From Ramlibacter sp. (GTDB lineage Bacteria; Pseudomonadota; Gammaproteobacteria; Burkholderiales; Burkholderiaceae_C), in contig JAQGMS010000087.1 of the NCBI GenBank assembly GCA_028292245.1, positions 1-37,520 on the forward strand: DNA of 37,520 nt, read 5' to 3'. Positions 5,184 to 18,480 of this stretch are shown here, piece by piece. The stretch's first letter is position 1; each line of letters starts with the position of its first letter. Under the pieces are notes generated by a model. It made no database searches. It saw only the letters and a program-made list of their open reading frames with translations, and was not told the origin of the DNA. Made by a program: the position numbers and the translations under genes.

Positions 5184-6416
5184 ATGAATCAAGCCTCTGT
5201 TACAAAATATCCGGTAACCGATCGTGCGCGCGAAGCGCTGGCAATTTCGTTGCGCGGGACCGAAGAGCTGATTCCGCAAGAAGAATGGCTGCAGAAGCTG
5301 GCGAAATCGGAAGCAACCGGGATTCCGCTGCGCGTCAAGCTCGGACTTGATCCTACAGCGCCCGACATCCACATCGGGCACACCGTGGTCCTCAACAAGA
5401 TGAGGCAGTTGCAGGACCTGGGGCACACGGTGATCTTCCTGATCGGCGACTTCACCTCGATGATCGGCGACCCTTCGGGGCGCAACGCGACACGCCCGCC
5501 GCTGACGGCGGAACAGATCAAGTCCAACGCGGAAACGTACTACAAGCAGGCCAGCATGGTGCTGGACCCGGCAAAGACCGAGATTCGCTACAACAGCGAA
5601 TGGAGCGACCCGCTCGGTGCGCGCGGCATGATCCAGTTGGCCGCGAAGTACACGGTGGCACGGATGATGGAGCGCAACGACTTCCACGAGCGCTTCAAGG
5701 CCGGCAGCTCGATCAGCATCCATGAGTTCCTTTACCCGCTGATGCAAGGCTATGACTCGGTGGCGCTGAAGAGCGATCTGGAACTCGGCGGCACCGACCA
5801 GAAATTCAACCTGCTGATGGGGCGTCACCTGCAGCAGGAATACGGGCAGGAGCCGCAATGCATCCTGACCATGCCGCTGCTCGAAGGCCTGGACGGCATC
5901 GAGAAGATGTCCAAGAGCAAGAACAACTACATCGGCATCAACGAGGACGCGAACACGATGTTTGCGAAAGTGCTTTCGATTTCCGACGACCTGATGTGGC
6001 GCTGGTACACGTTGCTGAGCTTTCGCAGCGAGGCCGGGATCGCCGCGTTGAAGAAGGAAATCGAGGCAGGCCGCAACCCGAAGGACGCGAAAGTGATGCT
6101 GGCCAAGGAAATCACGGCGCGCTTCCACGACGCGCAGGCGGCCGATGCCGCGGAGCAGGACTTCATCAACCGCAGCAAGGGCGGTGTGCCGGATGACATT
6201 CCCGAAGTGAAACTCAGCGGCGCGCCGCTGGGCATAGGCGCGTTGCTCAAGCAAGCTGGCCTGGCACCTTCGACCAGCGAGGCCAACCGCCTGATCGACG
6301 GCGGCGGTGTGCGCGTCGATTCCAGCGTCATAGGCGACAAATCGCTGAAGCTGGCCGCCGGCACTTACATTGTTCAGGTCGGCAAGCGCAAATTCGCCAA
6401 GATCACCTTGGCGTGA
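5184..6416 (+). CDS. tyrS: tyrosyl-tRNA synthetase
   Basis: Class I aminoacyl-tRNA synthetase charging tRNA-Tyr, 410 residues. The HIGH motif is at residues 63-66 (DIHIGHTVVLNK) and KMSKS at 241-245. The tyrosine pocket (GDFTSMIGDPSGR, GGTDQKFNLLMGR) is present. A C-terminal S4 RNA-binding domain runs from about residue 345 (SEANRLIDGGGVRVD). Length and motifs fit the TyrZ-like subgroup common in Proteobacteria. There is no clear SD before the ATG. The gene is divergent from the M23 peptidase and convergent with a cupin lipoprotein, 12 bases apart. Confidence 0.98.
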   Translation: MNQASVTKYPVTDRAREALAISLRGTEELIPQEEWLQKLAKSEATGIPLRVKLGLDPTAPDIHIGHTVVLNKMRQLQDLGHTVIFLIGDFTSMIGDPSGRNATRPPLTAEQIKSNAETYYKQASMVLDPAKTEIRYNSEWSDPLGARGMIQLAAKYTVARMMERNDFHERFKAGSSISIHEFLYPLMQGYDSVALKSDLELGGTDQKFNLLMGRHLQQEYGQEPQCILTMPLLEGLDGIEKMSKSKNNYIGINEDANTMFAKVLSISDDLMWRWYTLLSFRSEAGIAALKKEIEAGRNPKDAKVMLAKEITARFHDAQAADAAEQDFINRSKGGVPDDIPEVKLSGAPLGIGALLKQAGLAPSTSEANRLIDGGGVRVDSSVIGDKSLKLAAGTYIVQVGKRKFAKITLA

Positions 6417-6428
6417 CCGTGCGGCGCG

Positions 6429-6851
6429 TCAGGGAGCCGGCGAGGCGAGCGGCTTGCCCTTTTCGACGACGTACACGCCAACCAGCTTGATCGGCGCATT
6501 CGAGTCGTTGTGCGCATCGTGGACCACGCCCGCAGGGATGACGAACGATTCGCCGGCCTTCACCTTGCGCGGCGGCTGGCCGTCGACCAGCAGCGTGGCC
6601 TCGCCTTCCATCACATAGCTGATTTCGTCGCCCGGATGGGTGTGGCGGCCCGCCTTGGCGCCCGGCGCGACCTCGACGCGCGCGACCACCGCTTCGCGCC
6701 CCGGCACCGAAACATCGGCCCTGCCGACCAGAACACGCGTGAGGCCGGAAGCGCCGGCCGCCGGAGCTGGTGCTTGAACGGGCATGGAGCATGCGCCCAG
6801 GATGAGCAGGCCGCCAAAGGCCAGGAACAGGGTTTGCGCTGGTTTCTTCAT
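6429..6851 (-). CDS. cupin-domain lipoprotein
   Basis: Protein of 140 residues with a lipoprotein signal peptide. The hydrophobic stretch LFLAFGGLLI is followed by the lipobox LGAC, giving the lipidated Cys at residue 21. A small cupin barrel follows (about 40-130): RHTHPGDEISYVMEG carries the first metal motif (H-x-H and E), and VIPAGVVHDAHN carries the last histidine. The substrate is unknown; the family includes small periplasmic cupins annotated as quercetin-dioxygenase-like. An AGGAT ribosome site lies close to the ATG. It may belong to a small accessory block with the downstream vapBC and cation transporter. Confidence 0.85.
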   Translation of the reverse strand: MKKPAQTLFLAFGGLLILGACSMPVQAPAPAAGASGLTRVLVGRADVSVPGREAVVARVEVAPGAKAGRHTHPGDEISYVMEGEATLLVDGQPPRKVKAGESFVIPAGVVHDAHNDSNAPIKLVGVYVVEKGKPLASPAP

Positions 6852-6954
6852 GAGGATCCTCTTTGGGTATGGGCGCGAAGGCCGCGCCTCTGGATGCTAG
6901 CCAGCGCCACCTGGGCCGGAGTCGGGATCAACCCTTGCTTGGACCCAGGTCGTG

Positions 6955-6982
6955 TTGCTATTTTGTACATAACTTGTACAAT
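6955..6982 (+). promoter_or_regulatory. vapBC promoter with overlapping operator
   Basis: TTGCTA (6955-6960) and TACAAT (6977-6982), 16 bases apart, make a plausible sigma-70 promoter. Two TGTACA palindromes (6964-6969 and 6975-6980) lie exactly 11 bases apart, one helical turn, and the second sits in the perfect palindrome TTGTACAA (6974-6981) that overlaps the -10 box. This is the arrangement expected for autorepression by a dimeric VapB antitoxin. The start codon follows the -10 box by only seven bases. Confidence 0.7.
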
Positions 6983-6989
6983 TGCAGCC

Positions 6990-7295
6990 ATGATCACCAA
7001 CATCGATATCGATGAAGACCTTGTCGCGGAAGCGATCAAGCTGTCGGGCGCACGCAGCAAGCGCGAGGTGGTCGATCGCGCCCTGCGCGAAATGGTAGCC
7101 CGCGCGCACAGGCCGCGCTTTCGTGACTTCATGGGCGTTGGCGACATCGATCCCGAATACGACCCGAAGGCGCCCGAAGCGCGCGGCGACGAAGTGGGGC
7201 GTTACCGCGTGGAGCAAGGAAGGGCCGCGTACAAGGTCACGCCGGCCGCTCCGGCAAGGAAGGCGGCCGTGAAAAAGCCGGGAAAGAAAACCTGA
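6990..7295 (+). CDS. vapB: type II antitoxin, VapB family
   Basis: Antitoxin of 101 residues that would bind and neutralise VapC and repress its own promoter. The N terminus (NIDIDEDLVAEAIKLSG, KREVVDRALREMV) is the ribbon-helix-helix DNA-binding segment of the DUF2191-type VapB family. Residues about 44-70 should be the toxin-binding part. The last 20 residues are an unusual Ala/Pro/Lys-rich basic tail (PAAPARKAAVKKPGKKT). The ATG at 6990 was chosen because homology starts there; upstream codons in the frame cross the operator. There is no SD, and the message is probably leaderless. The stop TGA overlaps the vapC ATG by one base. Confidence 0.88.
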   Translation: MITNIDIDEDLVAEAIKLSGARSKREVVDRALREMVARAHRPRFRDFMGVGDIDPEYDPKAPEARGDEVGRYRVEQGRAAYKVTPAAPARKAAVKKPGKKT

Positions 7296-10528: not shown

Positions 10529-11104
10529 ATGATAGGCAAATTGACTGGAACGCTGGGCGACAAGAACCCGCCGCAGGTGCTGGTGGACTGCAACGGTGTC
10601 GGCTACGAGGTCGACGTTCCGATGAGTACCTTCTACAACCTGCCGGGCCTGGGCGAGAAGGTCACGCTGCTGACCCACCTGGTCGTCCGCGAGGACGCGC
10701 AATTGCTCTACGGCTTCGGCTCGGCTGGCGAGCGGGAGGCCTTCCGCCTGCTGATCAAGATTTCGGGCGTCGGCCCGCGCACGGCCTTGTCCGTGCTGAG
10801 CGGCATGAGCGTCGCGGATATTGCCCAGGCCGTGACGGCGCAGGATGCCGGCCGGCTGGTCAAGGTACCGGGTATCGGCAAGAAAACCGCCGAGCGCCTG
10901 CTGCTCGAACTGAAGGGAAAATTCGGTGCCGACCTGGGCGCTGGAGCGACTGGTGCGGGCGGCGATGCCCAGGCCGATATCCTGCAAGCCTTGGTCGCGC
11001 TGGGCTACAGCGACAAGGAAGCGGCTGCTTCGCTGAAGGTGCTGCCCAAGGACGTGGGCGTGAGCGAAGGCATCAAGTTGGCATTGAAGGCGCTGAATAA
11101 ATGA
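10529..11104 (+). CDS. ruvA: Holliday junction branch-migration protein RuvA
   Basis: Tetrameric junction-binding subunit of the RuvAB branch-migration complex, 191 residues. Domain I is an OB-fold ([17 protein letters not shown]), domain II holds two helix-hairpin-helix motifs ([13 protein letters not shown] and [19 protein letters not shown]), and domain III is the RuvB-contacting C terminus ([13 protein letters not shown]). A Gly/Ala linker separates II and III. The stop overlaps ruvB by four bases (ATGA). Confidence 0.98.
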
Positions 11105-12159
11105 CGATCCAGACCGACGACTTCGAAGTGCCGCCGTCCAAGCGGGTGGTGTCGGCCGCGCCTGTCTCGCCGAACGAGGAAGCGATCGAGCGCGCGCTGC
11201 GGCCGAAGCTGCTGCAGGAATATGTCGGCCAAGCCAAGACCCGCGAGCAGCTGGAGATCTTCATCAGCGCGGCAAAAAAACGCGGTGAGGCCATGGACCA
11301 CGTGCTGTTGTTCGGCCCGCCGGGCCTGGGCAAGACCACGCTGTCGCACATCATTGCGCACGAGCTGGGCGTGAACTTGCGGCAGACCTCAGGCCCGGTG
11401 CTGGAAAAGCCGAAGGACCTGGCCGCGTTGCTCACAAACCTCGAGAAGAACGACGTGCTGTTCATCGACGAGATCCATCGGCTGTCGCCGGTGGTCGAGG
11501 AAATCCTGTACCCGGCGCTGGAGGACTACCAGATCGACATCATGATCGGCGAGGGGCCGGCGGCGCGTTCGATCAAGCTCGACCTGCAGCCCTTCACCCT
11601 GGTGGGCGCGACCACGCGCGCGGGCATGCTCACCAATCCGCTGCGCGACCGGTTCGGCATCGTCGCGCGGCTGGAGTTCTACACCGCCGAGGAACTGGCG
11701 CGCATCGTCAAGCGCAGCGCCGGCTTGTTGAAGGCGCCGATGGACGATGAAGGCGGCGTCGAGATCGCCAAGCGCTCGCGCGGCACGCCGCGAATCGCCA
11801 ACCGGCTGCTGCGCCGCGTCCGAGACTACGCGGAGGTCAAGGGAAACGGGCAGATCACCCAGGAGATCGCGAACAAGGCGCTGAAGATGCTCGACGTCGA
11901 CCCGCAGGGCTTCGACGTGATGGACCGCAAATTGCTGGAGTGCGTGATCCACCGCTTCGACGGCGGGCCGGTCGGCCTGGACAACATAGCGGCCAGTATC
12001 GGCGAAGAGCGCGACACCATCGAGGACGTGATCGAGCCCTACCTGATCCAGCAGGGCTACCTGCAACGCACGCCGCGCGGCCGGATCGCCACGCTGGCGG
12101 CGTTCCGTCACCTGGGTGTGACGCCGCCGAAGAGTGCGGGCGAGCTGTTCGCCGACTGA
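11101..12159 (+). CDS. ruvB: Holliday junction DNA helicase RuvB
   Basis: AAA+ motor of branch migration, 352 residues. Walker A GPPGLGKT is at 72-79, Walker B is in [10 protein letters not shown], sensor 1 in GATTRAGML, and the arginine region in PLRDRFGI. The winged-helix C-terminal domain binds DNA. Translation is coupled to ruvA. Its last 52 bases overlap, tail to tail, the end of the membrane fusion gene on the other strand. Confidence 0.98.
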
Positions 12160-13892
12160 GTTGCCGCAACGGCGCCGCCGGGCTTGGCATTGCAGGCGAT
12201 CAGTATCTGGGCCACGTAGTAAGTGGCCAACACCGAGAACTGCGCCATCGGAAACGGGAAGGCGAACCTGTTGGTGGCCAGCAGCGAATCGCTCAGCATG
12301 AAGAAGCCAGCGCCGACGGCGACCGCGATCGACGTGCGGTCACGCAGCACGACGGCACGGCCGATCGCCTGCGCCGCCATCAACGCAATCACCGCGACGT
12401 AAGCAGCCACGGCGACCTTCAGCACCGGGTCCAAGCCATTGAACAGGAACGCGTACATGGCCGCGCCGAGCGCGACGGTGATGAACAAGGCCCTGCGGCT
12501 TGGGAACCACGCCATGCCCTGCCGGAACAATGCGATGTAGAACAGGTGCGCGATGAGGAATGACACCAGGCCCGGGATGAAGAAGCCGGGGAACATGAGG
12601 AAGCAGTCGCCCGCCAGCGAAAAAGCCAACCCGGCTACCAGCAGCAGCCCGAACCGTGCCGGTGCACTCCGCAACTGCAGGCGCTGCGCTACATAAACGA
12701 TAGCAAGCAGCATCGCCAATGGCTTGAAGACACGGTGCAGTTCCACCAGCCCTTCGGCCCCGGTAGCCGTCGCCAGCGCGGCTGCCTCGACCAGCAGCAC
12801 TTCCAGCATGAAGAGACGTCCCTGCATCACCGCCCCGACCGCCCACAGGCCTGCGGACAACGCTGCCAGCCACACTGTCGATCGCGACAGCGGCATCTGG
12901 TCGGCATGCCAGAGGAACAGCGCCACGCAATGCAGCAGCACGACGAACTGGATCGCGCCGAACCAGGCCACGTTGCGAGTGACCGGCGGGTGGAAGCGTC
13001 CTGCTTTCGCGGCATCGAACGCCGGCTTGGGAAAGCGTGCCGCGACATCGGCGGGGCGCCAGCCTGGCGGCTTGAACCAGACGCGCAATTTGTCCAGCCA
13101 GTTGCGGGCGTGCCATGAGTCCTTGGCCAGCCCCCAGTACACCTCGGCGTTGGACCACAGCGGGTCCCAGCTGTTCAAGGGACTGCGCGTGCCGTAGACG
13201 CACTTCTCGTCTTCTTCCTTGAAGCTGCCGAAGATCCGGTCCCAGATGATCAGCACGCCGCCGTAGTTGCGGTCCAGGTAGTGCTCGTTGATGGCATGGT
13301 GCACCCGGTGGTTGGAAGGCGAGCAGAACCATCGGTCGAACCAGCCCAGCTTCGGCACATGTTCGGTGTGCACCCAGAACTGGTACAGCAGGTCGATCAA
13401 CGCCACCACACCGAAAACCAGCGGCTGCACGCCGGCGATCGCCATCGGCAGGTAGAACAACCAGCCGAGGAACGCGCCGGAACTGGTTTGCCGCAGCGCC
13501 GTGGAAAGGTTGTAGTCCTGGCTCTGGTGGTGCACGACATGCGCGGCCCAGAACACGGCGCTTTCGTGGCCCGCGCGATGCAGCCAGTAGTAGCAGAAAT
13601 CGTAGAACAACAGCGCGAGCAGCCAGCCATACCAGGTGGTCCAGAACTCCTTGGCCAGGTCGATCGGAACCAGCGACACGGTGGTGTAGACCGCCCCGTA
13701 GATTCCCACGCGCAGCAGCCGGGTGAACACCTTGCTGGTTTCGCTGAGCATGCCCAGGCTGATGCTGTTGATCGCGTCGTTGAGCCGGTAGGTGTTGCGC
13801 TTGCGCGCCCAGCCCCAGGCGAACTCGATGCCGATCAGCAGGAAGAAAACAGGCGTCGCGAAGACGATGATCTGGAATGGTGACAATGCCAT
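12108..13892 (-). CDS. fusion: fatty-acid hydroxylase/AGMO-like domain + lysoplasmalogenase-like domain
   Basis: Polytopic membrane protein of 594 residues with two recognisable halves. Residues about 1-290 are a sterol-desaturase/fatty-acid-hydroxylase domain with the di-iron histidine clusters HRAGH (105-109), HVVHH (118-122), HTEH (175-178) and HRVHH (195-199); [22 protein letters not shown] resembles alkylglycerol monooxygenase. Residues about 385-570 are a YhhN/TMEM86 domain: GDCFLM (D429), [12 protein letters not shown] (H449) and [13 protein letters not shown] (D535). About 90 residues with extra membrane helices link them. One half would oxidise the glyceryl ether bond, the other would hydrolyse the vinyl ether bond of lysoplasmalogens. 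Substrate and pterin use are inference. The frame is continuous with no sign of frameshift. It starts 23 bases after the phosphatase gene. Confidence 0.85.
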
Positions 13893-13915: not shown

Positions 13916-14560
13916 TCAGAAACTGGTGTTTTCGTCGGCGGCTTCGTGGTCCAGGTGCTGGGTGTCGGACCAGCCTACCAGGGTGAAGCCCTCGGGAGTC
14001 CACAGCAGCCGGTTGATGGCGCCGTTGGGCAGTTCCCAGGTGCGGGGTGAATTGACTTCCTGCCCGGTCGCCACGCGATACAGGCAGTCCAGCACGCCGC
14101 CGTGAGCAACCACCACGATTTGCTCGCCCGGATGGCGCGCCGCAAGCTCCTGCATGGTCCGCGTCACGCGTTCGCGCAGTTCGAGCAGCGATTCGCCGCC
14201 GTCGGGGGGCTGCCACTCGGGAATGCGTTTGCGCCAGTTTTGCGCATGGTCCGGCCAGGTCTCATGGATCTCGTTGAAGGTCTTGCCCTCGAAAATCCCG
14301 AAGCTGCGCTCGCGCAAGCCCTCATCGGCGACCACCGGGATGCCGGTGGTCTCGGCGATGGATTGCGCCGTTTGATGCGCGCGGCCCAGGTCGCTCGAAT
14401 AAACGGCGGTGATCGGTTCACTGGCCAATGCTTCGCCAACCCGGCGCGCCTGCCAGCGGCCGGTATCGTTCAAACCGATGTCCAACTGGCCCTGGATGCG
14501 AGCGTCGACGTTCCAGGCCGTTTCGCCATGGCGTACGGCAATGATGCGGGTGGCTTCCAT
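13916..14560 (-). CDS. histidine phosphatase family protein (GpmB-like)
   Basis: Cytoplasmic phosphatase of the phosphoglycerate-mutase-like superfamily, 214 residues. The catalytic motif RHGET is in IIAVRHGETAWN near residue 10; the second catalytic histidine is in VVVAHGGVLDCLYR. SSDLGRAHQTAQ and ERSFGIFEGKTF are typical. Substrate is not evident; true phosphoglycerate mutase activity is unlikely for this subgroup. The ATG at 14560 begins the homologous region and has AAGG close upstream. A TAGAAT hexamer lies eight bases before the ATG. Confidence 0.92.
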   Translation of the reverse strand: MEATRIIAVRHGETAWNVDARIQGQLDIGLNDTGRWQARRVGEALASEPITAVYSSDLGRAHQTAQSIAETTGIPVVADEGLRERSFGIFEGKTFNEIHETWPDHAQNWRKRIPEWQPPDGGESLLELRERVTRTMQELAARHPGEQIVVVAHGGVLDCLYRVATGQEVNSPRTWELPNGAINRLLWTPEGFTLVGWSDTQHLDHEAADENTSF

Positions 14561-14568
14561 TCGCCTTG

Positions 14569-14574
14569 ATTCTA
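14569..14574 (-). promoter_or_regulatory. -10-like hexamer before the phosphatase gene
   Basis: TAGAAT (five of six matches to TATAAT) ends eight bases before the ATG at 14560. An AAGG between them could still serve as a weak ribosome site. Confidence 0.35.
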
Positions 14575-14619
14575 GGGGGCAACCCGTGAAAATTGCCACC
14601 CACAAGGCGTACCCAAGTG

Positions 14620-15213
14620 TTAGGAGCTGACCTGGATATTGACTGTGCGCGGGCCCGCGGGCGGGTTCGGAAAGCCTTGCAGAGCTGCTTCGAACATGGC
14701 CGGGAAGACCTGTGCGCTGCTCGACCATGGGCCGTCGTTGGCCGCCTGGCTCTCGAAAACCACCTTGTTTGAAGCCAGTTCACGCACGATGACACCCACT
14801 TCACGGTGATACCAGGGCGATTCCATGGTGGACAACCGTCCGCCGATTCCAAAGCCGAAGCCGTGGCGCCTCATCCCGAGGCCGACGCCAAAACCGTCCC
14901 ACGGGCTGGCCCAGGGCGACAAGACCGGCTGCAGGCGCGCGGTCACCTGCACGCTGTAGCGCGGATTCGCGTCGTCACGCTGCAAGCCCGCCTTGTGCAG
15001 GGCAGCATCGGCCAGAGCTTCGAGTTCAACCTGGGCCGGCGCTTGCTGCGACGGCAGCCGCTCGAACCGGTAGGTTGGTTGGGACGGCAAGGCCGGCAGG
15101 CTGGAAAATGACTGCACGCTGTTGTCCAGCAGATAGCTGGTGGCGCAGCCCGACAACAGCAGCAAAACGATTGCCAAGCCCGAAGCGAGCAGCCCAAGCA
15201 CAGAACGTTTCAT
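14620..15213 (-). CDS. DUF4136 domain lipoprotein
   Basis: Outer-membrane or periplasmic lipoprotein of 197 residues, function unknown. The signal peptide MKRSVLGLLASGLAIVLLLL is followed by the lipobox LSGC with Cys at residue 23. The mature protein is a DUF4136-type domain (YRFERLPSQQ, ALADAALHKAGLQRDD, YSVQVTARL), with a glycine-rich insertion (GFGVGLGMRRHGFGFGIGG). GGAGG lies five bases before the ATG. It sits 27 bases after ttcA in the same direction. Confidence 0.88.
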   Translation of the reverse strand: MKRSVLGLLASGLAIVLLLLSGCATSYLLDNSVQSFSSLPALPSQPTYRFERLPSQQAPAQVELEALADAALHKAGLQRDDANPRYSVQVTARLQPVLSPWASPWDGFGVGLGMRRHGFGFGIGGRLSTMESPWYHREVGVIVRELASNKVVFESQAANDGPWSSSAQVFPAMFEAALQGFPNPPAGPRTVNIQVSS

Positions 15214-16210: not shown

Positions 16211-16579
16211 CTACCAGAGCCCGGTCTCGACCCGGATCGCCACTTCGCAGTCGTCGAAGATTTCGAGCTTGACGATGCGCACCCGCACGCCCAGCACGCC
16301 GGGCAACTGCATCAACCGATGCGCCAGTTTGCCGATCATGCTTTCCAGCAGGTTCACGTGCTCGGCCGTGCACTCGTCGATGATGATCTTGCGCACTTTG
16401 CGGTAGTCCAGCACGTGGCCGATGTCGTCATCGCGCGGCAGCAGCGGCTGCGTGCCCAGGTTCAGCTCGGCGTCGACCATGATCGGCTGCGGCGAAGTCT
16501 TCTCGTGATCGAGGATGCCCAGGTTGGCGTCGAAGCGCAGCCCGGTGAGGGTGAGGATTTGTGTGCCGGCTTTTGACAT
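16211..16579 (-). CDS. dihydroneopterin aldolase / FolX-type epimerase family protein
   Basis: Pterin enzyme of the tunnelling fold, 122 residues. Family features: LTGLRFDANLGILDHEKTSPQ with the pterin-anchoring Glu, and VLDYRKVRKIIIDE, LLESMIGKLAHRLM. The lysine region reads VKLEIFDD, whereas classical FolB has a K-P-x-A sequence. A K-L at this place is closer to FolX, which epimerises dihydroneopterin triphosphate toward monapterin. I therefore leave FolB versus FolX open. It begins immediately after the pteridine reductase stop codon (TAG then ATG), so both enzymes act in one pathway and are translated together. Confidence 0.85.
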   Translation of the reverse strand: MSKAGTQILTLTGLRFDANLGILDHEKTSPQPIMVDAELNLGTQPLLPRDDDIGHVLDYRKVRKIIIDECTAEHVNLLESMIGKLAHRLMQLPGVLGVRVRIVKLEIFDDCEVAIRVETGLW

Positions 16580-17368
16580 CTACATCAGCGAAAAATCGCG
16601 GTCGAACTTCATCAGGTGCTGGCCTCCATCGACCAGCAAGGTGGTGCCGGTGATCGAATGGTTGTCCAGCGCGAATTTCACGGCTGCCACCACGTCCTGC
16701 GGCGTGGACGAGCGGCCCAGCGGCGAGAGCCGGTGCAATTGGTCGAATTTTTCCTGCGACAGCAGGTGGCTGGTGAGAGTGAGGCCGGGCGCGACCCCCA
16801 CCACGCGCACCTGCGGCGCAAGCGCAATGGCCAGCATGGTATTGGCCGCTTCCAGCGCGGCCTTGGACAAGGTGTAGCTGAAGAAGTCGGGGTTCTGGTT
16901 CCACAGCTTCTGGTCCAGCAGGTTGATGACGACAGCGTCCCGCGCCGCAGCGGCGGGGTCGCGCGAACACACGTGCTGGTGCAGCGCCTGCGCCAGCAGG
17001 ACCGGCGCACCGGTGTTGGTCCGCAGGTGCGCCGCCAATGCGTCGTAGCCGAAGCTATTGACACCGTCGTGCTCGAACATCGATGCGTTGTTGATCACCG
17101 CGTCCACAGACCCAAAGCGTTCGATCACGCGCGGCAGCAGGGCGCGAGCCTGCGCCTCGTCGCCCAGGTCGGCCTGGAAGCTCTCGATCAGCGCGCCGCT
17201 GGCGGCGGCTTTCCTGCAATCGGCCACGGTCTGTGCGGCCTCGGCGGCCGATCCGCGGAAATGGACTGCCACCTGCCAGCCGGCCGCGGCCAGCGCCAGC
17301 GCGACTTCGCGGCCCAGCCGCTTGGCGGAGCCGGTGACCAGCACGGTGCGTGGAGGGGGCGAACTCAT
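16580..17368 (-). CDS. SDR-family pteridine reductase (FolM/PTR1-like)
   Basis: Short-chain dehydrogenase of 262 residues, predicted to reduce dihydropterins or dihydrofolate with NADPH. The cofactor motif is TGSAKRLG (12-19), where the Arg is characteristic of PTR1/FolM enzymes. NNAS is at 93-96. The catalytic pair is Y165/K169 in SYTLSKAALE, preceded by D152 in NLLDQKLWNQNP, again PTR1-like. ATG 17368 was chosen because the Rossmann fold starts ten residues in. It is the first gene of the minus-strand run and has its start only 17 bases from the divergent methyltransferase start. Confidence 0.87.
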   Translation of the reverse strand: MSSPPPRTVLVTGSAKRLGREVALALAAAGWQVAVHFRGSAAEAAQTVADCRKAAASGALIESFQADLGDEAQARALLPRVIERFGSVDAVINNASMFEHDGVNSFGYDALAAHLRTNTGAPVLLAQALHQHVCSRDPAAAARDAVVINLLDQKLWNQNPDFFSYTLSKAALEAANTMLAIALAPQVRVVGVAPGLTLTSHLLSQEKFDQLHRLSPLGRSSTPQDVVAAVKFALDNHSITGTTLLVDGGQHLMKFDRDFSLM

Positions 17369-17385
17369 TCGGGGACAATTGCCGG
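17369..17385. promoter_or_regulatory. 17-base divergent start region
   Basis: The whole space between the SDR ATG (minus) and the methyltransferase GTG (plus). It holds GACAAT (17374-17379), which ends six bases before the GTG, around a CAATTG palindrome (17376-17381). On the minus strand the equivalent hexamer AATTGT is a poor match. Promoters for both genes must reach into the opposing coding sequences. Confidence 0.35.
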
Positions 17386-18480
17386 GTGACGACAGAAGCA
17401 ACAAGTTTAACGAAGGCCTTGCAGGCGCTGCTGGAAAAATCGATTCGCCGGGCCGGCGGCTGGCTGCCGTTCGACCGGTTCATGGCGCAGGCGCTGTATG
17501 CGCCGGGGTTGGGCTACTACGCCAACGACTCGCGCAAGTTCGGCCGGATGCCCGGCTCCGGGAGCGATTTCGTCACCGCGCCGGAGATGACACCCCTGTT
17601 CGGCCAGGCCCTTTCGGTCCAGGTGGAGGATGCCTTGCGCGCCACCGGCACCCATGATGTGTGGGAGTTCGGCGCCGGCTCCGGAGCGCTTGCGCTGCAA
17701 TTGCTGCAGGCTTTGGGCGGCCAGGTGCGGCGTTACACGATCGTCGACGTCTCGGGCAGTTTGCGGGAGCGGCAGCGGGCGACCCTGGCGGACTTCGCGG
17801 CAACGGTCGAGTGGGCAAGCGAACTTCCCGATTCCATCAGAGGCGTTGTGGTGGGCAACGAAGTGCTGGACGCGATGCCGGTCAAATTGGTGGCCCGCAG
17901 CGGCGGCACTTGGCACGAGCGCGGCGTCACGGCGGTGGGCAGCGCCTTCGCTTGGCTGGACCGCGGGACCGATCTGCGCCCACCGGTCGAGCCGGAAGGC
18001 GCGCACGACTACCTCACCGAAATCCATCCGCAAGCCGAGGCGTTCGTGCGGACGCTGGCCGACCGCCTGGTGCAGGGCGCTGCGTTCTTCCTGGACTACG
18101 GTTTCAGCGAAGCCGAGTACTACCACCCGCAGCGCCACATGGGCACGCTGATGTGCCACCGCGGCCACCTGGCGGATACGGATCCGCTGAGCGACGTCGG
18201 CCTCAAGGACATCACCGCGCACATCAATTTCACCGGCTTGGCGCTGGCAGCGCAGGAGGCCGGGCTGCCTACCCTCGGTTACACCACGCAAGCACGATTT
18301 CTGATGAACTGTGGGCTGGTGCCCCTGCTGGCACAGGCGCCGCTGGCACAGCGGATCGCGGGGCAGCGCCTGATCGCCGAGCATGAGATGGGCGAACTCT
18401 TCAAGGTCATCGGTTTTCACCGGGGCGAGTTCTGGGACGCGGTGGGATTTCGCGAAGGCGACCGCACCCACAGGCTCTGA
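17386..18480 (+). CDS. class I SAM-dependent methyltransferase, COG1565 (MidA/NDUFAF7-like)
   Basis: Protein of 364 residues in the family whose mitochondrial members methylate an arginine of complex I subunit NDUFS2. The bacterial substrate is not established. Motifs: SDFVTAPEMTPLFGQ, the SAM-binding loop VWEFGAGSGALALQLL, YTIVDVSGSLRERQ, VVGNEVLDAMPV and GAAFFLDYGFSEAEYYHPQR. The start is taken as GTG 17386; the in-frame GTG at 17350 would overlap the divergent reductase. Length is typical. Confidence 0.9.
   Translation: MTTEATSLTKALQALLEKSIRRAGGWLPFDRFMAQALYAPGLGYYANDSRKFGRMPGSGSDFVTAPEMTPLFGQALSVQVEDALRATGTHDVWEFGAGSGALALQLLQALGGQVRRYTIVDVSGSLRERQRATLADFAATVEWASELPDSIRGVVVGNEVLDAMPVKLVARSGGTWHERGVTAVGSAFAWLDRGTDLRPPVEPEGAHDYLTEIHPQAEAFVRTLADRLVQGAAFFLDYGFSEAEYYHPQRHMGTLMCHRGHLADTDPLSDVGLKDITAHINFTGLALAAQEAGLPTLGYTTQARFLMNCGLVPLLAQAPLAQRIAGQRLIAEHEMGELFKVIGFHRGEFWDAVGFREGDRTHRL

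Follow-up and report, generated by a model that had tools for sequence, protein, structure and literature searches.

Alkylglycerol monooxygenase (AGMO, also TMEM195, EC 1.14.16.5) cleaves alkylglycerols and lyso-alkylphospholipids via a hemiacetal, as described in the consulted sections of one review (PMC7911779). In the consulted sections of this and a second review, AGMO is called the only known enzyme degrading these lipids and is placed in animals, with one AGMO-related bacterial enzyme of another reaction, and the human enzyme is said to have resisted purification (PMC3617469; PMC7911779). For the lysoplasmalogenases of the YhhN/TMEM86 family (EC 3.3.2.2; Legionella, Mycobacterium tuberculosis, human TMEM86A/B), the excerpted report on the M. 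tuberculosis YhhN protein describes cleavage of lysoplasmalogens with the requirement of a free sn-2 hydroxyl (PMC9052158). Here, we describe a gene of Ramlibacter sp. that codes for a single protein of 594 amino acids with an AGMO-type monooxygenase half followed by a lysoplasmalogenase (YhhN) half. The gene is located at 12108..13892 on the minus strand of a DNA stretch of 37,520 nucleotides (contig JAQGMS010000087.1), which is referred to as the window. Ramlibacter is a bacterium of soil and water.

The open reading frame starts with an ATG at 13892, ends with a stop codon at 12108-12110 and runs through 594 codons without interruption, whereas the plus strand of the same segment holds stops. 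Third-position G+C amounts to 86% in this frame versus 60% and 45% in the other two minus-strand frames. Pfam recognized an FA_hydroxylase domain (PF04116) at residues 90-223 (13224..13625, minus strand, as are all parts of the fusion gene given below; E 2.8e-29, 102.6 bits, cut-off 31) and a YhhN domain (PF07947) at residues 386-566 (12195..12737; E 6.1e-44, 150.3 bits, cut-off 25.6), both scoring far above the cut-offs. The fusion is a genuine gene and no assembly chimera, because 21 of the 37 genomes sampled from its genus and 40 of the 250 sampled from its family contain full-length matches; nine of the latter rest on frame length, since the match is split or reads through a stop. The best 80 of 287 matching stretches from a named collection were fetched, and all 80 loci hold a frame of 559-621 amino acids. 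A sequence-only reading of the window had claimed one continuous frame of 594 codons joining an AGMO-like to a lysoplasmalogenase-like half; the frame was confirmed and located on the minus strand, and the joining of the two halves is borne out by the two Pfam domains and by the 24 functional residues described below.

Regarding the first half, mutagenesis of human AGMO is reported, in the consulted sections of the two reviews, to have identified H132, H136, H145, H148, H149, H201, H221, H224 and H225 as well as Q162, D233, N235, Y236, W243 and D244 as essential, and loss of E137 to have led to an 18-fold higher Michaelis constant for tetrahydrobiopterin; according to the part consulted of the review from 2013, E137 is missing from the remaining proteins of the superfamily (PMC3617469; PMC7911779). 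We assigned the equivalents of these residues by constant offsets (27, then 26) from the residue numbers given in the two reviews. By this spacing, the nine histidines correspond to H105, H109, H118, H121, H122, H175, H195, H198 and H199 of the fusion protein, the six further essential residues to Q135, D207, N209, Y210, W217 and D218, and the pterin glutamate E137 to E110, which adjoins the second histidine of the motif. The first cluster (residues 105-122, 13527..13580) carries H105, H109, E110, H118, H121 and H122 as counterparts of AGMO H132, H136, E137, H145, H148 and H149, with E110, supported by spacing and conservation, at 13563..13565. H175 (13368..13370), assigned on the same two grounds, represents the ninth conserved AGMO histidine H201, and the second cluster (residues 195-218, 13239..13310) pairs H195, H198, H199, D207, N209, Y210, W217 and D218 with H221, H224, H225, D233, N235, Y236, W243 and D244. 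The catalytic part is followed by AGMO-type C-terminal transmembrane helices, of which TM6 and TM7 were placed at residues 306-356 (12825..12977) by a structure model and our own profiles.

All 16 AGMO functional residues are invariant in 58 of 58 non-redundant fusions, an alignment composed of the window protein and 57 of the 80 fetched loci that were kept at less than 90% identity. A more distant member of the superfamily (the second match in locus L188) is devoid of the equivalents of Q162, D233, Y236 and E137 and, therefore, the AGMO residue set discriminates within the superfamily. Judged by this residue set, the first half is AGMO-type, which is more specific than a generic fatty-acid hydroxylase; the AGMO likeness put forward in the sequence-only reading is thereby sharpened, as all 16 functional residues, the pterin glutamate among them, are in place. 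That reading had also listed H105, H109, H118, H121, H122, H175, H178, H195, H198 and H199 along with D429, H449 and D535 of the second half. All of them are present, but H178 is neither invariant nor nearly invariant among the 58 fusions, and it is H175, not H178, that matches the ninth AGMO histidine. The sole match in an NCBIfam scan was the ornithine lipid hydroxylase OlsE (NF052566); with 49.7 of the required 475 bits, membership of the fusion protein in this family was ruled out. Modelling of the whole chain gave a predicted template modelling score (pTM) of 0.80. A Foldseek search of the PDB with this model yielded no significant match, and a sequence search of the PDB retrieved nothing by phmmer or by profile.

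The second half was compared with human TMEM86A, for which the consulted part of the mutant study reports that alanine replacement of K43, G81, D82, H104, G182, S189, D190 and Y213 affected activity in all cases except G81 (PMC11994398). By identity and spacing, the counterparts in the fusion protein are K390, G428, D429, H449, G527, S534, D535 and Y558 (span 12219..12725). These eight lysoplasmalogenase residues, as tested in TMEM86A/B, are invariant in 58/58 fusions in a half where 31 of 219 positions are invariant overall, so that the functional residues of both halves together are conserved in 24 of 24 cases. A model of the YhhN half has a mean predicted local distance difference test score (pLDDT) of 93.3 and shows eight helices. 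Compared with a library of viral models, its best match, and the only one with E <0.001, was a Tupanvirus lysoplasmalogenase (template modelling score 0.83, E 1.6e-6, 13% identity). Against the PDB, nothing significant was found for this half; the top rows were two designed folds resembling G-protein-coupled receptors (E 0.25 and 0.39), followed by heme A synthase. The predicted YhhN topology has been described, in the part of the source consulted, as like that of a G-protein-coupled receptor plus an additional first helix (PMC4602095). The YhhN fold of the C-terminal half, on which the sequence-only reading had made its claim depend, is thus present in the model and, on the basis of residues and predicted structure, the second half is a complete lysoplasmalogenase-type domain.

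In order to locate the joint between the halves, we used our own profiles, built from 30 AGMO-only loci (including a few duplicates) and 23 YhhN-only proteins. The AGMO-only profile covers residues 7-387 of the fusion protein (527 bits) and the YhhN-only profile residues 369-570 (145 bits). Residues 369-387 (12732..12788) are shared by both, and the last retained AGMO helix seems to be identical with the first YhhN helix. Since the two profiles overlap on one helix and AGMO-only relatives carry one more helix at the position of the joint, the last AGMO helix has apparently given way to the YhhN domain, helix eight of AGMO doubling as YhhN helix 1. This shared helix probably matters, because a form of M. 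tuberculosis YhhN without helix 1 was inactive according to the part of the report consulted (PMC9052158). No homology of the AGMO C-terminal helices to YhhN was seen with these profiles (best E 0.066).

The distribution of lysine and arginine over the loops of the 58 fusions suggests how the protein may be oriented. On one side of the membrane, the mean number of these residues per loop is 4.0 (TM1-2), 18.7 (TM5-TM6), 2.9 (Y2-3), 2.9 (Y4-5) and 1.5 (Y6-7; Y stands for the YhhN helices), versus 0.0 to 1.0 on the other side (TM2-3, TM6-7, Y1-2, Y3-4, Y5-6 and Y7-8). Less clear are TM7-Y1 (1.0) and the TM3-TM4 stretch (1.0), which the proposed topology places inside. This pattern agrees with the N-in/C-in orientation predicted for M. 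tuberculosis YhhN (PMC9052158) and with the cytosolic location given for the AGMO catalytic region (PMC3617469), both as stated in the sections consulted. Under the predicted topology, the YhhN residues would lie in the middle-to-outer half of the membrane and the two active sites probably face opposite membrane sides. The charge pattern thus speaks against a shared membrane leaflet for both sites, a point that the sequence-only reading had suggested checking.

Lyso lipids are the substrates of both AGMO and YhhN, and each of the two enzymes releases a fatty aldehyde. We therefore propose that the fusion acts in the inner membrane as a two-site enzyme that frees fatty aldehyde from lyso-ether lipids of both the alkyl and the vinyl kind, a reading to which we give an even chance. 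The two domains, their intact and conserved residues, the YhhN fold, trees compatible with a single origin and the genomic link outside the fusion are results of the analysis; the activity, the cofactor, the substrate, the topology and the benefit are inferred from them. The di-iron centre of the N-terminal half would be located on the cytosolic side and be fed with tetrahydropterin. It would oxidise the carbon beside the ether oxygen of 1-O-alkylglycerols or lyso-alkylphospholipids and thereby split these lipids into a glycerol (phospho)diester and a fatty aldehyde. The YhhN domain, with a pocket reaching from the middle of the membrane into its outer half, would hydrolyse the vinyl ether of lysoplasmalogens to a fatty aldehyde and the same diester. 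Both halves would draw on one mixed pool of lyso-ether lipids side by side, not in sequence, and the released aldehyde may enter ordinary fatty-acid breakdown. The benefit may lie in detoxifying lipids of eukaryotes, myxobacteria or anaerobes or in using them.

An action in sequence, with the di-iron half oxidising or desaturating beside the ether (alkyl to vinyl, like the plasmanyl desaturase PEDS1) and the YhhN half hydrolysing the product, would be chemically plausible, as a vinyl ether made in place is a YhhN substrate and the halves are part of one chain. We nevertheless consider it highly unlikely: the residue set is that of AGMO, a Pfam scan at E up to 1 detected no PF10520 (PEDS1/CarF family) in the fusion protein, derivatives with only the YhhN or only the AGMO half persist, and YhhN is common without AGMO-type genes, namely in 81 of 104 YhhN-carrying genomes of a phylum sample (398 genomes minus the window genome, with AGMO-type genes counted at E up to 1e-70 and YhhN over the Pfam cut-off). 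In addition, the charge pattern places the sites on opposite membrane sides and, therefore, direct hand-over is disfavoured and parallel action favoured. A search for the plasmalogen desaturase PF10520 matched none of 80 genomes, but as the controls likewise gave no match, this negative carries little weight.

Within the genomes sampled, a search for two-domain proteins, as suggested in the sequence-only reading, found full-length fusions only in one Burkholderiales family, apparently with one origin, and separate neighbouring genes elsewhere. In the phylum sample, 6 of 398 genomes carry a full-length fusion, and all six belong to the family of the window, which is represented by 12 genomes. 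The named fusion loci include Ramlibacter, Polaromonas, Variovorax, Acidovorax, Hydrogenophaga and Caenimonas. A quick tree of the YhhN half unites the 26 sampled fusions in one clade with a support of 97 in the Shimodaira-Hasegawa-like approximate likelihood ratio test, with a long-branch warning for the unfused rows. In a quick tree of the AGMO half, the 26 fusions fall into one clade (95) that also contains the AGMO-only loci L024, L025 and, with a long branch, L026. The simplest reading of these trees is one old fusion event, followed by losses. The site of the fusion gene, between a phosphatase gene and ruvB, is occupied by AGMO alone in G013 and G026 and by YhhN alone, apparently without the first helix, in G005. 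YhhN alone adjoins the phosphatase gene in G736, G750, G551 and G541 and lies 2.4 kb away from it in G668. In the YhhN-only loci L200, L201 and L203 (G668, G736 and G750), the match still starts at residue 292-301 and, therefore, AGMO-type helices are retained before YhhN.

Outside of this family, locus L118 of G044 harbours an AGMO-type gene (5854-7038) whose long branch is nested within the fusions; beyond its stop, a brief resemblance to the YhhN start continues (to residue 411), as in a decayed fusion. Among plasmid records, 56 showed a match, none with one place covering 80% of the query. Plasmid-borne genes of AGMO type from Pseudomonas aeruginosa (H3 and H5), Delftia (H4) and Caballeronia (H1 and H2) share about 40-54% identity with the query across residues 4-362 and, where annotated, are named sterol desaturase family protein.

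Several lineages have lost the joint again at one and the same site, and one could argue from this that two lipid genes were joined by chance, with each half keeping its own job and no joint function. This explanation, which is also favoured by the large distance between the two genes in most two-gene genomes (14 of 17 outside the window's family and 22 of 28 in a second family), has to be set against the retention of one old event across many genera and against the occurrence of the same two proteins as neighbours in two other families, in differing order and orientation and with an AraC-type gene. On balance, we regard chance joining as quite unlikely.

The association of the two proteins as separate genes was assessed in two samples of genomes. 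In the phylum sample, 23 of the 31 genomes that have an AGMO-type gene also carry YhhN, versus 81 of 366 without one (Fisher p 7e-9); with the window's family left out, the figures are 17/25 versus 81/361 (Fisher p 4e-6). In the second family, the corresponding numbers are 28/31 and 23/67 (p 2e-7). As the query of the latter AGMO search had 60 residues, AGMO-type genes may have been missed there: G461, G463, G496, G503, G513 and G535 (weak matches, frames of 393-482 amino acids) as well as G485 and G523 (E <1e-3, shorter frames) were counted as lacking AGMO, and five of these eight genomes possess YhhN.

A stronger link between the two proteins than these counts is their physical neighbourhood. 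In G049, the YhhN gene (L117 5188-5859) ends one base before the AGMO-type gene (5861-7078), and the pair stands behind a gene for an AraC-family regulator and a gene with major facilitator superfamily (MFS) and acyltransferase domains, located upstream at L117 2150-4090. G374 and G392, which are species of two different genera, each have YhhN and an AraC-type gene side by side with the AGMO-type gene facing them, and the same layout recurs in their genus-mates G475, G514 and G511. The AraC genes of G049, G374 and G392 were confirmed by Pfam; the others were assigned by tblastn. A distance of about 8 kb separates the AGMO-type gene in G519; in G483 (L195 2967-6600), the AGMO-type gene beside YhhN is broken up, its pieces lying apart with about 1.5 kb of other DNA in the gap; and in G057, an AraC-type gene directly precedes the AGMO-type gene, with YhhN elsewhere in the genome. 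Overall, the two genes are neighbours in 3 of 17 two-gene genomes outside the window's family. In the second family, this holds for 5 of 28, or for 6 if the broken copy is included; two genomes belong to both counts. The non-neighbouring pairs are far apart or on different contigs. We would tentatively propose, with somewhat less than even confidence, a dedicated AraC-controlled bacterial module of AGMO-type monooxygenase and lysoplasmalogenase that degrades foreign alkyl and vinyl lyso-ether lipids, with a bacterial tetrahydropterin-dependent AGMO, and that in one Burkholderiales family has become a single protein with one site per membrane side.

The MFS and acyltransferase gene in front of the G049 pair resembles LplT-type lysophospholipid transporter-acyltransferases. 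It would fit a main role in protection from toxic lysophospholipids of any kind, with ether cleavage being incidental. In the consulted part of the report on M. tuberculosis YhhN, the enzyme is described as protective against lysolipids, but also as specific for lysoplasmalogen (PMC9052158). The probability of such a general protective role seems very small to us.

Several results weigh against the proposal of a two-site ether-lipid enzyme. The AGMO C-terminal domain AGMP_C (PF24858) was not found in the window protein by Pfam at E up to 1; among AGMO-only relatives, L027 matches it below the cut-off (E 1.1e-5, 25.8 bits, cut-off 28.3) and L028 gave no AGMP_C match. The di-iron region of the whole-chain model is of low confidence, with block mean pLDDT values of 37-60 over residues 181-240. 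Some lineages retain only one half, and the co-occurrence tests ignore phylogeny. The fusion protein and its relatives are so far putative ether-lipid enzymes. The main result against every pair acting like the fusion is the variation at the pterin position: the separate AGMO-type genes beside YhhN have T (G049) or R (G374 and G392) in place of the glutamate, and some separate pairs may therefore use the cofactor differently from the fusion. In the fusions, this position is E in 100 of 101 full-length proteins by motif count, which may include one genome twice from two collections. Of 20 AGMO-only genes hand-picked from the same-family list, 8 have E at this position, 9 have T and 3 have R; leaving out L209, which is truncated at the end of its contig and may itself be a fusion, 7 of 19 have E. 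Going by these counts, the cofactor residue of AGMO is more strictly conserved in the fusion than in its unfused relatives.

In favour of the proposal, pterin-4a-carbinolamine dehydratase is encoded in 32 of 32 genomes with AGMO-type genes versus 28 of 48 others (not a random draw, with 20 genomes without match and 28 with YhhN), but it is also present in all five AGMO-free genomes of the same family, and phenylalanine hydroxylase (PF00351) is patterned alike, with 29/32 versus 17/48; these two results add to the points against the proposal. The dehydratase pattern may follow phenylalanine hydroxylase rather than AGMO; G044, G064 and G119 are AGMO-type genomes with the dehydratase and without phenylalanine hydroxylase. 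Because of the similar pattern of the hydroxylase, the cofactor chemistry can be taken as available, without this being specific evidence.

The strongest rival explanation is that the first half is an AGMO-like oxygenase acting on a substrate other than ether lipids, such as a pigment, a hopanoid, an amino lipid or a membrane fatty chain, with the YhhN half as an ordinary lysoplasmalogenase and the fusion co-locating the two for regulation or stability. A precedent that speaks against our proposal is the AGMO-like enzyme of Pseudoalteromonas, which cyclises prodigiosin according to the consulted section of the review (PMC7911779). Since the E137 position varies among AGMO-only relatives, the wider clade may be functionally mixed, and none of the seven scanned neighbour genes of the fusion gene points to ether lipids. 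The near-constancy of the glutamate in the fusions (100/101), the invariance of all six further AGMO-essential residues and the recurrent partnership with an enzyme family for the sister ether bond argue against another substrate, which we consider unlikely.

The tail-to-tail neighbour of the fusion gene is ruvB (11101..12159, plus strand), and the 3' ends of the two genes overlap by 52 bases (12108-12159). The last residues of the fusion protein, a stretch of 12, read antisense to the end of ruvB, and the relatives L032 and L023 have similar tails. Directly upstream lies a gene of the histidine phosphatase superfamily (13916..14728, minus strand; bounds of the open reading frame, the true start may be internal). 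The scan also revealed upstream a FolB-like gene (16211-16579, minus strand) and a gene for a pteridine-reductase-like short-chain dehydrogenase (16580-17404, minus strand). We rejected these two genes as specific evidence for a pterin-fed AGMO, because Variovorax fusions such as L073, L074, L075, L078 and L079 are without such genes in the fetched flanks and the YhhN-only loci L203, L205 and L206 have the same genes. They form a conserved block of their own that is present in many relatives.

Each half of the fusion protein belongs to a described family; what appears to be new is the fusion of the two families with a candidate bacterial AGMO as first half. In the open PMC literature, to which our searches were confined, leaving aside subscription papers, nothing was found that joins AGMO and YhhN (lists of domain-architecture databases also lay outside this search), and a dedicated search found nothing on bacterial AGMO homologues. 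The fusion protein is a candidate for a bacterial route of ether-lipid breakdown and possibly a more tractable relative of human AGMO, and the natural splits (AGMO-only, YhhN-only, fused and neighbouring genes) make the division of labour directly testable.

Among known systems, OlsE belongs to the same superfamily as the first half, but the fusion protein is not a member of that family. The prodigiosin cyclase of Pseudoalteromonas rubra, compared by its description in the consulted section only, is likewise a bacterial AGMO-related oxygenase and differs in substrate. With AGMO itself, the fusion shares the nine histidines, the pterin glutamate and the six further essential residues at the same spacing as well as C-terminal transmembrane helices after the catalytic part. 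Unlike AGMO, the fusion is bacterial, seemingly misses the last AGMO helix, has no detected AGMP_C and carries a complete YhhN domain behind. With the YhhN/TMEM86 lysoplasmalogenases, it has in common the PF07947 domain, the eight residues assigned by spacing, the eight helices and a charge pattern fitting an N-in/C-in orientation. Unlike in these enzymes, the domain sits behind an oxygenase, and its first helix appears to be the eighth helix of AGMO.

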